A DNA stretch of 41,270 nucleotides from an archaeon (GTDB lineage Archaea; Thermoproteota; Nitrososphaeria; Nitrososphaerales; Nitrosopumilaceae): assembly GCA_024276695.1 (NCBI GenBank), contig JAJRWR010000004.1:1-41270 (forward strand). Direction: 5' to 3'. The position numbers and the translations under genes are program-made. Positions 15,961-34,108 of this stretch are shown here, piece after piece (the stretch's first letter is position 1; every line of letters begins with the position of its first letter). The notes below the pieces were generated by a model. That model was given only the letters and a program-made list of their open reading frames with translations. It was not told the origin of the DNA and did no database searches.

Positions 15961-17013
15961 ATGAAATCTGCCCGTATTCCTGGTCCAAATAAGCCTCTTA
16001 CTATATCTGAATCTGAAAACCCTAAACCTCGTGGAACTCAGGTTCTACTTAAGGTAAAGTCTGAAGGTGTATGTCATAGTGATTTACACTTGTGGGAGGG
16101 TGGATATGATCTTGGAGATGGCCAATTTTTGAAAGTTACTGACAGAGGAGTAAAATATCCTGTTACTCCTGGACATGAAATTGTTGGAACTATTGAAGAG
16201 ATTGGAGAAAGTGTTTCTAATGTTTCCGTAGGTGATGATGTTCTAGTTTTTCCATGGATGGGTTGTGGCGAATGCCCTGCATGTAAAGTAGGAAATGAAA
16301 ATTTATGTGATACTCCAAAATCGATGGGTCTTTTCCAAAATGGTGGTTATGCTGATTATACCTTAATTCCTGATTCTAAATATTTGGCAAAACTTGATGG
16401 TGTTGATCCAGATGCTGCAACTTCTCTTGCTTGCTCTGGACTTACGGCATATACTGCTATCAAAAAAGCAAATCAGAATTCTCCAGAGTTTCTTGTAATT
16501 ATAGGTGCTGGTGGCTTAGGATTAATGGGTGTTCAGATTGCTAGTGAAATTACTGATGCCAAAATTATCTGTGTAGATTTAGATGATAAAAAATTAGAAA
16601 CTGCAAAAGAGATGGGCGCTCATTTTACTGTAAACTCTAAAAATCCTGAAACTGTTCAAAAAATAATGTCGATATGTAATGATAAAGGTGCTGATAGTGT
16701 AATTGATTTTGTTAATGCCCCTCCCACAGTGAAAACTGGTTTAGATATTTTAAGGAAACGAGGAAATCTTGTACTAGTTGGATTATTTGGTGGTTCTTTG
16801 GAACTTTCCCTTGTAACAATTCCCCTAAAATCAATTATAATTCAAGGTGCATACACTGGAAATTACAATGACATGGTAGAACTTCTTGCACTTGCTCGAA
16901 AAGGAACTATTAATCCTGTAATTTCTAAAAGATATTCTTTGGATGAGGCAAATACTGCTCTTGAGGATCTTAAAGCACGTAAAATTATTGGTCGCGCAGT
17001 GATAAATCCTTAG
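15961..17013 (+). CDS. Zinc-dependent alcohol dehydrogenase
   Basis: The 350-aa medium-chain dehydrogenase has the catalytic zinc ligands in G-V-C-H-S-D-L-H (Cys about 37) and G-H-E (about 68-70). The structural zinc loop is C-G-E-C-P-A-C-K-V-G-N-E-N-L-C (about 100-114). The Rossmann fold has G-A-G-G-L-G-L-M-G (about 182-190) with an Asp at the end of the second strand (C-V-D-L-D-D), favouring NAD. The aromatic or aliphatic alcohol/aldehyde substrate cannot be told from sequence. It appears to be a single-gene unit with its own TATA-like box. The next genes downstream are broken. Confidence 0.93.
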   Translation: MKSARIPGPNKPLTISESENPKPRGTQVLLKVKSEGVCHSDLHLWEGGYDLGDGQFLKVTDRGVKYPVTPGHEIVGTIEEIGESVSNVSVGDDVLVFPWMGCGECPACKVGNENLCDTPKSMGLFQNGGYADYTLIPDSKYLAKLDGVDPDAATSLACSGLTAYTAIKKANQNSPEFLVIIGAGGLGLMGVQIASEITDAKIICVDLDDKKLETAKEMGAHFTVNSKNPETVQKIMSICNDKGADSVIDFVNAPPTVKTGLDILRKRGNLVLVGLFGGSLELSLVTIPLKSIIIQGAYTGNYNDMVELLALARKGTINPVISKRYSLDEANTALEDLKARKIIGRAVINP

Positions 17014-17064
17014 TTAAACACATCACTCAAAAATTTTATAATGGAAAAAAACTAGGTATTGCCA

Positions 17065-17430
17065 TTGGATACAAAAACAAGTTGTGAGGTTGCGTTAACC
17101 CATCTTAAAAATAAATAATTCATTACCGCTCATAATTTGTTTCTAAATCAATCTGAATCTTTAAAAAAATCTGAATTTTTAAAATCTGCTTTGTTGTATG
17201 TGTTGGCAGGTGAATGTAAAACTCGTTAAGGAAAACCTTCTGAAAATGAAATTAAAGAAGCTGGTGATTTATTTCTAAAATATTTCAATGTAAAAAATTC
17301 AAGAAATATTAAGGGTGCATTACTTTGCGCTTCAAAATGTTTGCTGAGTTTGGATGAATTTGATAAAGCTAAAGATGCATACCAAAAAGCATCATCTCAA
17401 TCCCAATTCAAGTTACTAGACCTATTGTAA
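17065..17430 (+). pseudogene. TPR-like helical protein, broken by two in-frame stops
   Basis: One frame runs 122 codons from TTG 17065 to TAA 17428-17430 and is interrupted by TAA at 17116-17118 and TAA at 17227-17229. On both sides of each stop the frame encodes plausible helical sequence, such as the C-terminal A-L-L-C-A-S-K-C-L-L-S-L-D-E-F-D-K-A-K-D segment, which has TPR-like spacing. A TATA-like box (tttataa, 17035-17041) is centred about 27 nt before TTG 17065. The gene overlaps the start of the broken receiver gene downstream. Readthrough is possible in principle, but two different positions make decay more likely. No intact ORF above 70 codons remains. Confidence 0.75.
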
Positions 17431-17805
17431 TATTGATGACAGTGAAGCAATTGCTATGAAACTAAAAATATATGTTGAAAAATTAGGTTATTCTGAAATC
17501 CATGTTTTTAAAAATGGGAAAGACGGTGTAAAAGGTTACAAAGAAACACTTTCTGAAAATAAAGACCCCCTTGTGCTTCTTGATATGGGATTACCTGATC
17601 TTGAAGGTGATGTTGTTGCTACAAAATTACTTAAAGAAAAAATTGATTTGCAAATTATAGTTATTACAGCTGATGAAAAAACAACCAAGCGTGTTCATAT
17701 TACTCTGAGTACAGGAGTTTCAGCCTTATTCAAAAACCATTTACCCTTGATGAAGTCAAAAAAGCAATAGATGTTGCAGAATCTGAATATTCTTTATTAC
17801 AATAA
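17412..17805 (+). pseudogene. Response-regulator receiver domain, two frameshifts
   Basis: The middle of this locus encodes a receiver (REC) domain: D-D-S-E-A-I-A-M-K near the start, the phosphoacceptor context L-V-L-L-D-M-G-L-P-D-L-E-G-D (about 17570-17610), and the I-I-V-I-T-A-D strand. The first strand (R-P-I-V-I) is in another frame, with a one-base loss near 17432. The last part, P-F-T-L-D-E-V-K-K-A-I-D, is in a third frame, with a one-base loss in the A5 run 17732-17736; it then ends at TAA 17803-17805. With both restored it would be about 130 aa, a normal stand-alone REC protein. As read, only a 104-aa piece starting at ATG 17456 is open. Confidence 0.8.
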
Positions 17806-18297
17806 AAGCAAGGACATATTCAGAATATTCACATCTTTGATGTCAATTTCATTTATTCTGTAATCTATTAATTCATCTGAAAATTTTTCCACAATTTTCT
17901 GTGATGTGTTCTTTTTCTCAGAAGTTACTTGTAGTAAAATTAACATGTTCCATTCTCCTTCCATATTTGATATTAGGAGATAATTGTCTAATTTTGTAAT
18001 GAAATCTTTGATGGAGTCTTTTACGGCTTCAAGTGATTTGGAAGGTTTTAATTTCATTAAGACTGCTTGATATTCATTAATCCATGACACATATGTTAGA
18101 ACTGCTTTGTATCCTTTGATGACACCACTTTTTTCTAAACGTTCTATTCTTTTTCTAATTGTTCTATCTGATACATCATGTCATGATTTTTTTAATTCTG
18201 ATGCAATTTCTTTTGATGGCGTTCTTGCATTGTCGTTTAGAATTTCTATTATTTTTTGATCTACTTTATCTAGATTTGACTATGCATCTTCACTCAT
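17797..18297 (-). pseudogene. Lrp/AsnC-family regulator with two in-frame stops
   Basis: One frame of 167 codons from ATG 18297 (or 18303) to TAA 17797 encodes a full Lrp/AsnC protein. The N-terminal helix-turn-helix contains L-D-K-V-D-Q-K-I-I-E-I-L, R-T-P-S-K-E-I-A and V-S-D-R-T-I-R-K-R-I-E-R-L. The wing G-V-I-K-G-Y-K-A-V is followed by a RAM-like ligand/oligomer domain. It is interrupted by TAG at 18280-18282 (codon 6) and TGA at 18181-18183 (codon 39, between K-K-S and H-D-V). The frame is otherwise intact, so the lesions look recent. It converges on the broken receiver gene with a few bases of overlap. An open piece starting at GTG 18090 covers only the C-terminal domain. Confidence 0.85.
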
Positions 18298-18367
18298 ATT
18301 CATTCAAACATATGATGTCTTTTGAATTTTTGGTTAAATTTACATAAATTCCCATTTTTGGTTTATC

Positions 18368-18931
18368 TTATTCTTCTAAAATCCAACCTGATTCTATAAT
18401 TTCTTGATCTTCTATTTCTCCAATATTTGTGGCATATCTCCAGATAAACTCTTCACTTGGGATCATCTTTTCTTTAATTTTTAAAAGAGCTTCGATTTCT
18501 GAATTTAGATTATTATCTGCATTTTCATGTTCTTTACAGAACTTACATTTCTGATCTAATGTGATTGGATCTGATTCAATTAATGGATATGCCGTACATG
18601 CTAAAGGTCTTTCATTGTAAATTTTACATGGATGACCTCCGTGTGGTGATTCCTCTCCACTGTCTGTATCCAAAAATGGACAAGTATTGCCATTTTTTTC
18701 AGAACCCATTAACTGATATGCTAAAATTTTACTTGGAAAGGAATCTTTTTTTTCAGAAATACCTATTCTTGGTAAAATTTTGATTTTTGATTCATTTTTA
18801 ATTGCCAGTTTTTCAATTCTACATTTTTCCTCTGGGAGAATTAATACTCCTATTTTACCAAATCTTTTACTTGGATAATATTCTCTTTCAACACAACACT
18901 GTGAGCAATCTTCTACACATTGAAATTCCAC
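18368..18931 (-). CDS. YkgJ-like cysteine-cluster protein
   Basis: The 187-aa protein starts with C5-x3-C9-x2-C12-C13 and later has T-C-P-F-L-D, H-P-C-K-I-Y-N-E-R-P-L-A-C-T-A-Y-P, and C-K-F-C. This is the YkgJ/CxxCxxCC family (zinc- or iron-chelating), which has no firmly known role; it is often proposed to carry an Fe-S cluster or zinc. The C-terminal E-E-F-I-W-R-Y region is helical. The GTG start at 18931 is supported by a TATA-like element about 26 nt upstream. It is a single-gene unit between the decayed cluster and aIF1A. Confidence 0.85.
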   Translation of the reverse strand: MEFQCVEDCSQCCVEREYYPSKRFGKIGVLILPEEKCRIEKLAIKNESKIKILPRIGISEKKDSFPSKILAYQLMGSEKNGNTCPFLDTDSGEESPHGGHPCKIYNERPLACTAYPLIESDPITLDQKCKFCKEHENADNNLNSEIEALLKIKEKMIPSEEFIWRYATNIGEIEDQEIIESGWILEE

Positions 18932-19610: not shown

Positions 19611-19707
19611 ACCGTGAATTTTTAATTTAAGATTTCATCTTTGTTTTCTTAAACTAGTCTTTCTTTTTCTTATTTTTAATATCATTTTTTTGATTTACAA
19701 AAATTTG

Positions 19708-19834
19708 TGGTCCCGCGGGGCGGAATTGAACCACCGACAACCCGGTTTCTGTATGCCTGATGGGCTGTTATTCGTTTAGCCATCTAAAGCCAACAACTAC
19801 AGCCAGGAGCTCTACCAGGCTGAGCTACCACGGG
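19708..19834 (-). tRNA. tRNA-Tyr(GTA) with a 50-nt intron and encoded CCA
   Basis: On the minus strand the acceptor CCCGTGG pairs with CCGCGGG, giving the C1-G72 pair typical of archaeal tRNA-Tyr, with discriminator A and CCA at 19708-19710. The D stem is GCTC/GAGC, the T arm GGTGG-TTCAATT-CCGCC, and the anticodon stem CCTGG/CCGGG. The anticodon GTA is at 19798-19800. About 50 nt between positions 37 and 38 must be removed. The mature length is 74 nt plus CCA. A T/A-rich box lies about 27 nt upstream on the minus strand. Confidence 0.95.
19747..19796 (-). other. tRNA-Tyr intron (canonical 37/38 site)
   Basis: The intron boundary shows part of a bulge-helix-bulge: the anticodon-loop bases CTGT pair with ACAG near the intron 3' end, flanked by 3-nt bulges (AGT and AAA). 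Cutting after the second base of each bulge gives a 50-nt intron and a 7-nt anticodon loop. The size is typical for archaea. No homing-endonuclease ORF fits inside it. Confidence 0.85.
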
Positions 19835-19943
19835 ACAAAAAAACGAAGATCTCTACTATTAAAAAACTATCGTAGATAATTTTTCATAATTGATCGTTAT
19901 ATTCTCTAAAGCATAAATACTCTGAAAGGGCGTTGAAAATGTC

Positions 19944-23118: not shown

Positions 23119-23433
23119 TCATTTTTGAAATTTTGTGTATGCTTTAAATTTGACAAAAACCACATTCAAAATGCCTTCATTTTTCATTGCAAATATTGTT
23201 TTTTCAATTATATCGGCTTGAATCATTTTTGCCAAATTATCATCGATTATAGGAGTTGGGGAATATGCACCCATTCCACCAGTATTAGGGCCCTCGTCAT
23301 TATCAAAAATCCTCTTATGATCCTGACTTGAAGCCATGGGAATTACAACATCACCATCAGATAATGCAATGTAAGATGCCTCAATTCCGTCAAAACTTTC
23401 CGAAATAAAATTTACATGTTCTCTTCTCCCCAT
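23119..23433 (-). pseudogene. Internal fragment of purD (GAR synthetase)
   Basis: A 104-codon frame encodes the central ATP-grasp part of phosphoribosylamine-glycine ligase: F-D-G-I-E-A-S-Y-I-A-L, then S-S-Q-D-H-K-R-I-F and G-P-N-T-G-G-M-G-A-Y-S-P. These are almost invariant in PurD. Both ends lose similarity abruptly: the first ten residues and the last twenty do not match the family, and the complete enzyme is about 420-430 aa. It is therefore a truncated remnant, probably of a duplicated or displaced copy. Purine synthesis needs an intact copy elsewhere. No mobile element or repeat is visible at the junctions. Confidence 0.8.
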
Positions 23434-23474
23434 TCGAAAATAATTTAGTCCGGAGATGTAAATTCAGAAATATC

Positions 23475-23711
23475 TTAAACTTCCTTATCGTCTTTGATTT
23501 CCAGCATTGGGGTAATTACATTTAGATGGTTTCTATGGTTATGAGGCACTAAAATTGAAATGAGTTTAGAATTTTTTGTGTTGGATAATCTCTTAATTTG
23601 TCGCCCAAATTTTTTATTGTTATTATCTTTTCCACCACCAATCAAAATTACTTTCTTTTTATTTCTAACAATAATGGCTTGACTACCTTTACGAACATTA
23701 AACATAATCAT
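23475..23711 (-). CDS. Uncertain small ORF (78 aa)
   Basis: The 78-aa ORF encodes a basic N-terminal half with K-K-V-I-L-I-G-G-G-K-D-N-N and a C-terminal part with V-P-H-N-H-R-N-H. The G-G-G after a hydrophobic strand could be part of a nucleotide-binding loop, but no family is recognised. It lies upstream of the purD fragment on the same strand, in a region of remnants, so it may itself be a remnant. No convincing TATA box or Shine-Dalgarno supports the ATG. Confidence 0.35.
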   Translation of the reverse strand: MIMFNVRKGSQAIIVRNKKKVILIGGGKDNNNKKFGRQIKRLSNTKNSKLISILVPHNHRNHLNVITPMLEIKDDKEV

Positions 23712-26716: not shown

Positions 26717-27861
26717 ATGTCTAACTATCAACAAATTGTTCCTATTGCAAATAAAATTATCAAAAAATATGATTTATGTGATCATTGTTTGGGAAGATTG
26801 TTCTCAAAACGATTACATCTCTCATCAAATAAACTTCTGGGGAAAAAACTAAGGAATAATTTAGATTCTACAGAAAAATGTTACATATGTAAAAACCTGT
26901 TTGATAATCTGGATCATTTTTTAAAATTAATGCTCAACACTTCATCTAATTACATGTTCACCACATTTAGTGTTGGTGCAATGATAAAACCATCAATTGC
27001 AGATAGAGATGATTTTATTAGATCTCAATACAAACTTAAAGGCATTGATAGTATAAAGACTGACATTACAAAAGAATTAGGAAGACTCTATTCAAGAAAA
27101 ACTAAAAAAAGAATCGATTACCTTGATCCTGAAATAACACTCACGGTAAATTTAAAAGATGAAATGTGTCAATTACGATCAAAATCCATCACTCTTTATG
27201 GGAGATATGTCAAATCACAAAGAGGGTATCCACAAAAACAAAAATCTTGTGATAATTGTTCAGGAAAAGGATGTAGAATTTGTGATTTTCATGGTATTGC
27301 TGTATTTGACAGTGTAGAGGGAATTATTTCAAAATTAATTTTTGATAAATTTGGAGGGACTACTGCAAAATTTACTTGGATAGGTGGTGAAGACAAATCT
27401 AGTTTAGTTTTGGGAACTGGAAGACCTTTTTTTGTAAAAATACAAAATCCCTTTAAGCGAAAAATAAAACTATCTAATATCCAAATTAATTCAATCAAAC
27501 TTTATAATCTAAAATTAGTTTACACGACTCCAAAAAAACCACTCAAATTCAATTCCACCATTAGTACAAAAATTTCTACAGAATCTCAAATTGATTCAAA
27601 AAGTCTAAGAAAACTAAAAGATCTCACCATTAATCCTATAGTAGTTTATGAAAAATCTGGAAAACGATCTGAAAAAAAAATTTTGAGGTAAAATACAAAA
27701 AAAATTCAAAGAATCTATTCACTTTGATTATACGGGCTGAGGGAGGCCTTCCAATCAAACGATTTGTAATTGGTGATGATGTTACACCCAATATCTCCCA
27801 AATTCTTGAAACTTCGTGTGTAAGTGAAGAATTTGATTTTTTGAATATTGAGGTCCAATGA
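26717..27861 (+). CDS. pus10: tRNA pseudouridine synthase Pus10, frameshifted in an A9 run
   Basis: Pus10 makes pseudouridine 54/55 in archaeal tRNAs. The N-terminal part (1 to about 60) has a zinc-binding set, C-D-H-C-L-G-R and C-Y-I-C; C-D-N-C and C-R-I-C follow at about 178-191. The catalytic domain has G-G-E-D-K-S-S followed by L-G-T-G-R-P-F, with the Asp of the E-D as the expected catalytic residue. As read, frame 1 stops at TAA 27689-27691 after 324 aa. The remaining family C-terminus (A-E-G-G-L-P-I-K-R-F-V, then I-L-E-T-S-C-V) continues in another frame to TGA 27859-27861. One extra A in the A9 run at 27672-27680 restores a single ORF of 381 aa, normal for the family. Confidence 0.88.
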
Positions 27862-33404: not shown

Positions 33405-34108
33405 TTATGCCTTCTTTCTAAATTTTGCAATATAATTTTGTCTTGTTTGTTTGTATGATTCTTTATTTCCAATATCTGTAAACCCGTTTTTTGTAATGAA
33501 ACCTGTGACTAGCTTTTTCTTACTCATAGCACTTTTGATTACATCATCCATTCCATATGGTTTATTCTTTGGAATTAAATCGAACACATTTGGTTCCATT
33601 ATATAGCAACCCATGTTTACATTTGCCTTTATCTCTGGTTTTTCTTCCCATCTTAACACTTTACCTGTTTTTGAAGTATTGATGATTCCATATTCCAAAT
33701 TGGTTTTGTATTCATTTAATCCCATGGTGACAAATGCTTTTTTTGTTTTGTGTTGTTTAATCATATTTCTGAGACTGAAATTAAATATTGAATCTCCATA
33801 CATACAAACAAAAGTATCTTGATGAATTTTTCTGCTGTTTTAAGTTGACCTGCAGTAGCTAGTGGTTTATTTGAAATTGCATATTCTATGTTAACTCCGA
33901 ATCTTTTTCCATCTCCAAAATAATCCTCAATTGTTTTTCGAAGATGGCTTACACACAAAACAATTGATTTCACACCATTTTTTTTATTCCAATCTATAAT
34001 ATGTTCCAAAATTGGTTTTTTACCTAGTAGCAACATGGGTTTTGGAGTTTTTTTCGTCAATGGAAGTAATCTTGTACCTAATCCTCCTGCTAAAATCACT
34101 GACTTCAC
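33405..34108 (-). pseudogene. Sugar-1-phosphate nucleotidyltransferase, split by one frameshift
   Basis: The N-terminal piece (34108 to about 33820) has the NTP-binding motif L-A-G-G-L-G-T-R-L-L-P-L-T and K-P-M-L. The C-terminal piece (about 33820 to 33405) carries M-Y-G-D-S-I-F-N-F (metal Asp), E-E-K-P and N-M-G-C-Y-I-M-E. A one-base loss at 33818-33820 (ATC-AA-GAT instead of ATC-AAA-GAT) separates the two frames; restored, the protein is 234 aa. This is a glucose-1-phosphate thymidylyl/uridylyl- or mannose-1-phosphate guanylyltransferase-like enzyme. It lies just upstream of the GNA1-like gene, so loss would affect the same pathway. Confidence 0.85.

Follow-up and report, generated by a model that had tools for sequence, protein, structure and literature searches.

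Evidence for pseudogenization and recurrent loss of a TPR-receiver/Lrp gene pair in a genus of the Nitrosopumilaceae

In a draft genome of the Nitrosopumilaceae, a group of putative signaling genes located between two intact genes is interrupted by stop codons and frame breaks. The locus raised the question of whether a signaling unit has been lost here or whether the interruptions have a different origin. The window (i.e., the whole stretch of DNA that was analyzed, 41,270 nucleotides in length) is contig C25 of this 1.56-Mb draft genome, which consists of 41 contigs and is 99.5% complete. An original prediction, made from the window itself, held that three consecutive genes were broken and that a whole signaling unit had been lost in this lineage. 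We compared the locus at the syntenic place in 15 relatives, in which it was mostly intact, and mapped the lesions by aligning the window with four intact relatives. A set of 95 congeneric genomes was used for the comparison across the genus.

Two broken genes between adh and ykgJ

The features of the locus are as follows.

15961..17013, plus strand: zinc alcohol dehydrogenase gene (adh), flank, intact open frame
17065..17808, plus strand: TPR-receiver (TPR-REC) response regulator, unitary pseudogene; homology split over three frames, a single ORF in relatives
17116..17118, plus strand: TAA nonsense codon within the TPR part (intact-homolog position 18)
17227..17229, plus strand: TAA nonsense codon within the TPR part (intact-homolog position 55)
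~17390..17391, plus strand: 7-base deletion junction at the TPR/receiver boundary
~17431..17432, plus strand: 1-base deletion junction in the first receiver strand, ahead of the acidic pair
17456..17770, plus strand: longest residual TPR-REC ORF, 104 aa, without strand 1 and its acidic pair and without the conserved Lys-Pro
~17724..17725, plus strand: 1-base deletion junction ahead of the conserved receiver lysine
17797..18303, minus strand: Lrp/AsnC-family regulator pseudogene, with an intact counterpart at this place in relatives
17797..18090, minus strand: residual Lrp ORF, 97 aa, without the helix-turn-helix (HTH)
18181..18183, minus strand: nonsense codon TGA inside the Lrp HTH
18280..18282, minus strand: nonsense codon TAG near the Lrp N terminus
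18368..18931, minus strand: YkgJ-like CxxCxxCC gene (ykgJ), flank, intact open frame

At the syntenic place in the intact relatives, TPR-REC is one ORF of about 249 codons. Judged by sequence, the TPR and receiver stretches of the window are thus one broken gene, and the three broken genes that had been proposed are two. All of the predicted lesions (the two TAA codons, the two 1-base deletions in the receiver part, and the two stop codons in the Lrp gene) were present, and both flanking genes were open, as had been claimed. The 7-base deletion had been missed; with it, the lesions of the TPR-REC pseudogene relative to the four intact relatives come to three deletions (one of 7 bases and two of 1 base) and two nonsense codons. 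A TAG codon at 17053-17055 was rejected as a lesion because it lies upstream of the start codon used in relatives.

The intact Lrp/AsnC gene has 166 codons in relatives, and the window's Lrp gene, when read through its two stops, is 93% identical in amino acid sequence to an intact homolog. With the thresholds used, no second copy of TPR-REC or of Lrp at the level of an intact ortholog was found in the window's genome. Because the longest residual TPR-REC ORF is without the acidic pair and the lysine, and the residual Lrp ORF is without its HTH, it appears unlikely that these remains could work as they stand.

The pseudogenes belong to a known kind of regulator. The receiver domain of intact TPR-REC matched PF00072 (E value of 6e-18), and its phosphorylation residues (D127, D128, D176, T204, and K227) were invariant in 13 intact homologs. 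In a predicted structural model, three helical pairs were followed by a receiver fold that matched CheY-like structures; the helical N-terminal part was modeled with low confidence (pLDDT of ~50 to 65). A structure search returned mainly receiver domains and PhyR, which does not firmly inform the N-terminal part, and the TPR_1 match (16.8 bits) was below the Pfam cut-off of 27.8. The accessible part of a published census records a TPR-TPR-TPR-REC architecture for the Nitrosopumilales, with AFS82335 as an example (PMC5847659). The intact homologs fit this record in domain order and taxon; the window's gene differs in being a pseudogene. In that part of the census, the architecture alone is described, with neither an Lrp neighbor nor repeated loss (PMC5847659).

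The intact Lrp homolog has an AsnC-type HTH (PF13404, 36.6 bits versus a cut-off of 27), shows sequence matches to the archaeal regulators PH1519 and LrpA, and aligns to full-length solved PH1519 over residues 9 to 132. However, Pfam found no match to PF01037, the C-terminal RAM (AsnC ligand) domain, and the scores against named NCBIfam members were far below their cut-offs (48.9 versus 180 for LysM and 40 versus 250 for LrpA). Since Pfam finds the HTH alone, the C-terminal domain seems to be diverged.

Age of the pair and its recurrent loss

In relatives, the TPR-REC and Lrp genes lie tail to tail; among seven pairs measured, six overlap by 9 bases and one by 12 bases. In a few genomes, extra genes lie between them, which indicates that the 9-bp overlap is dispensable. 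Specifically, G070 carries a 527-aa ORF (L100:2533-4116) that by eye resembles a secreted sugar dehydrogenase, the interval in G071 is similarly wide, and G092 has a 90-aa ORF (L108:3670-3942) between intact TPR-REC and Lrp genes.

Outside the genus, 16 loci were read, from eight further genera of the family and from a second family; an Lrp homolog was found near TPR-REC in every one of them, and the two genes were tail to tail in 15. As in the window, scpA/scpB or adh adjoined the pair in most of these loci. TPR-REC homologs, some of them receiver-only matches, were detected in 11 of the 64 genera sampled in the order. The constant neighborhood outside the genus means that the pair is ancient in the family, so its absence within the genus is most simply explained as loss. 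Both genes are intact in the sister species (G033), and the pair existed in the ancestor of that species and the window's species.

Across the genus, an intact TPR-REC gene was found in about 34 of the 95 genomes and an intact Lrp gene in about 32, at the same place wherever the place could be read. The flanking genes were found far more widely (adh in 89 genomes and ykgJ in 77). The comparison of the adh-ykgJ region that had been suggested with the original prediction thus revealed an intact pair in many relatives and remnants or nothing in others. Where the pair was present, adh and ykgJ were separated by about 1.35 to 1.40 kb, or by about 3 kb in two genomes that carry an extra gene; where pieces were left, by 200 to 1,080 bp; and where nothing was left, by 1 to 13 bp. 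In G064, for instance, the 198-bp interval retained nothing of the pair but about 50 codons from the HTH region of Lrp. Other genes can also occupy the slot: in G063, which we take to be N. maritimus SCM1, a 252-aa menaquinone-biosynthesis-like gene (PF02621; L122:8053-8808) sits where the pair was lost.

Losses were counted on a FastTree phylogeny of the flanking genes (about 2,200 residues); the counts presuppose a root that had the pair and no later regain of it. There were 21 independent losses when single-lesion genomes and Lrp-only cases were scored as having the pair, and 26 when every lesion was scored. Collapsing nodes with less than 0.95 support gave a minimum of 19 or 23, depending on the scoring. 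Thus, the pair was lost independently about 20 times in the genus (at least 19 to 21), and the loss is not the peculiarity of the window's lineage that had been predicted. Lrp was broken alone in G009 and G103, and TPR-REC carried a lesion in G065 and G067, two cases with few lesions that may be sequence errors; these four genomes indicate that the two genes are not strictly interdependent. We found no link between loss and genome size in the genus (medians of 1.65 and 1.58 Mb; P = 0.4).

It might be argued that in some species the pair inserted recently between adh and ykgJ as a mobile element and that most of the genomes without it never had it, since the two flanking genes are just 13 bp apart in some clades. 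However, several other genera carry the pair at the syntenic position, remnants of it persist at the same place in several genomes, and its distribution follows descent. In addition, the basal clades and the clades with the 13-bp spacing contribute few of the counted losses. A recent insertion is therefore very improbable, and we favor loss of an ancestral pair. The pattern resembles the recurrent parallel gene loss described in prokaryotes, in which nonsense mutations, frameshifts, and deletions independently degrade one locus in many lineages. It differs in that one small two-gene signaling unit was lost about 20 times in one genus, in that every stage of decay can still be seen at a single site, and in that there was no link with genome size.

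Decay, sequence error, or recoding

We used flanking genes, with 68 to 88 complete loci per gene, as a control for the lesions. No lesions were found in adh (88 loci), scpA, scpB, two ribosomal/SRP genes, tfb, gar1, the eIF1A gene, or sufC, and ykgJ, a cold-shock gene, and one further gene had one, four, and one, respectively. In contrast, 7 of 43 complete TPR-REC loci and 9 of 43 complete Lrp loci carried lesions. This concentration of lesions in the pair, next to nearly clean flanks, argues against sequencing error.

Substitutions on the window's branch were then sorted by codon position. The counts at positions 1, 2, and 3 were 10, 6, and 12 for TPR-REC and 7, 2, and 3 for Lrp, compared to 3, 4, and 20 for adh. 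The bias toward the third position was also weak in ykgJ (6, 5, and 9), and the sister's TPR-REC counts (6, 5, and 10) were not far from those of the window. Although small, the counts support the idea that constraint on the pair has been relaxed on the window's branch, where the third-position bias is gone from the pair and is kept by adh.

Relative to syntenic genes, all four of the clear in-frame nonsense codons in the window fall in the focal pair. If placement were uniform, the chance that all four would land in about 1.25 kb of about 36 kb of coding sequence is roughly 1.5e-6; this rough estimate did not score a purD relic or stops located at the ends of genes. The original prediction had held that decay is confined to the signaling cluster, which is true of the clear nonsense codons but not of decay in general: a Pus10 gene, a nucleotidyltransferase gene, and the purD relic are also broken.

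Two explanations would leave the genes functional. Errors in sequencing or assembly could have created the stops and frame breaks, and the division of the draft into 41 contigs and the single frame breaks in two other window genes are in keeping with this. Errors would, however, have to account for four nonsense codons and three deletions within 1.25 kb, while the other syntenic genes of the window show no clear nonsense codon; for the excess of first- and second-position substitutions in the pair relative to adh; and for independent decay of the same pair in many assemblies whose flanks are clean on the same contigs. We consider this explanation very unlikely. The proteins might instead still be made by readthrough or recoding (stop reassignment or programmed frameshifting), as the 93% identity of the read-through Lrp sequence could suggest. 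Yet TAA, TAG, and TGA all occur among the lesions together with three frame-changing deletions, and the remaining genes of the window terminate at ordinary stops. Most of the relatives in which the genes are retained have uninterrupted frames. The stops of other broken homologs lie at other positions, none of which matches a stop in the window, which indicates that the lesions arose independently and were not programmed. The original prediction had judged readthrough unlikely, and we regard it as less credible still than error.

Real pseudogenization, with recurrent loss of the pair in the genus, is by far the most probable account of the locus. The proposed loss of a whole signaling unit in this lineage agrees with the intact pair in the sister species, the intact flanks, and the drop in constraint, provided that the unit is taken to be two genes.

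A possible signaling role and other features of the window

In the ancestral module, the response regulator gene joined a TPR-like helical domain at the N terminus to a C-terminal phospho-receiver and lay tail to tail with the gene for an Lrp/AsnC transcription factor. In the mechanism that we envisage, a histidine kinase would phosphorylate the receiver, the TPR-like domain would relay this state to another protein, for which the neighboring Lrp factor is the most likely candidate, and the Lrp factor would then act on DNA. In a niche without a need for the signal or the target, both genes would be free of selection and both would decay. We tentatively suggest that TPR-REC might be a phosphorylation-controlled partner of Lrp, with the two-component output passing through a separate DNA-binding protein, and that the module was discarded about 20 times as its signal is niche specific; the odds are somewhat against this proposal as a whole. 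The link between the two proteins is inferred from gene neighborhood and co-loss only, and one deletion can remove neighbors together.

According to the census, stand-alone receivers without a DNA-binding output make up about 75% of thaumarchaeal response regulators (PMC5847659). A conserved receiver/Lrp neighbor pair is a concrete candidate for the route from phosphorylation to transcription in these archaea, and about 20 natural losses in one genus form a ready-made knock-out set with which to ask what the pair might regulate. In the literature searched, which covered few subscription papers, we found no report of the TPR-REC/Lrp pair or of its loss. The combination of deep conservation elsewhere and unusually frequent loss within the genus is invisible from one window.

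Other features of the window were also noted. The purD relic (23122-23433 or 23122-23711, minus strand) is what remains of a second phosphoribosylamine-glycine ligase gene; an intact purD is present on contig C16, and the syntenic stretch of G007 has no ORF matching the relic. The tRNA pseudouridine synthase (Pus10) gene (26717-27858, plus strand) has a frame break near 27690 that may be a sequence error, and the gene is uninterrupted in G007, G002, and G012. The sugar-1-phosphate nucleotidyltransferase gene (33405-34108, minus strand) has a frame break near 33800 and is one open frame in three relatives. ARAGORN reported no tRNA gene in the window; by eye, positions 19703-19840 (minus strand) have the look of a tRNA gene with an intron.
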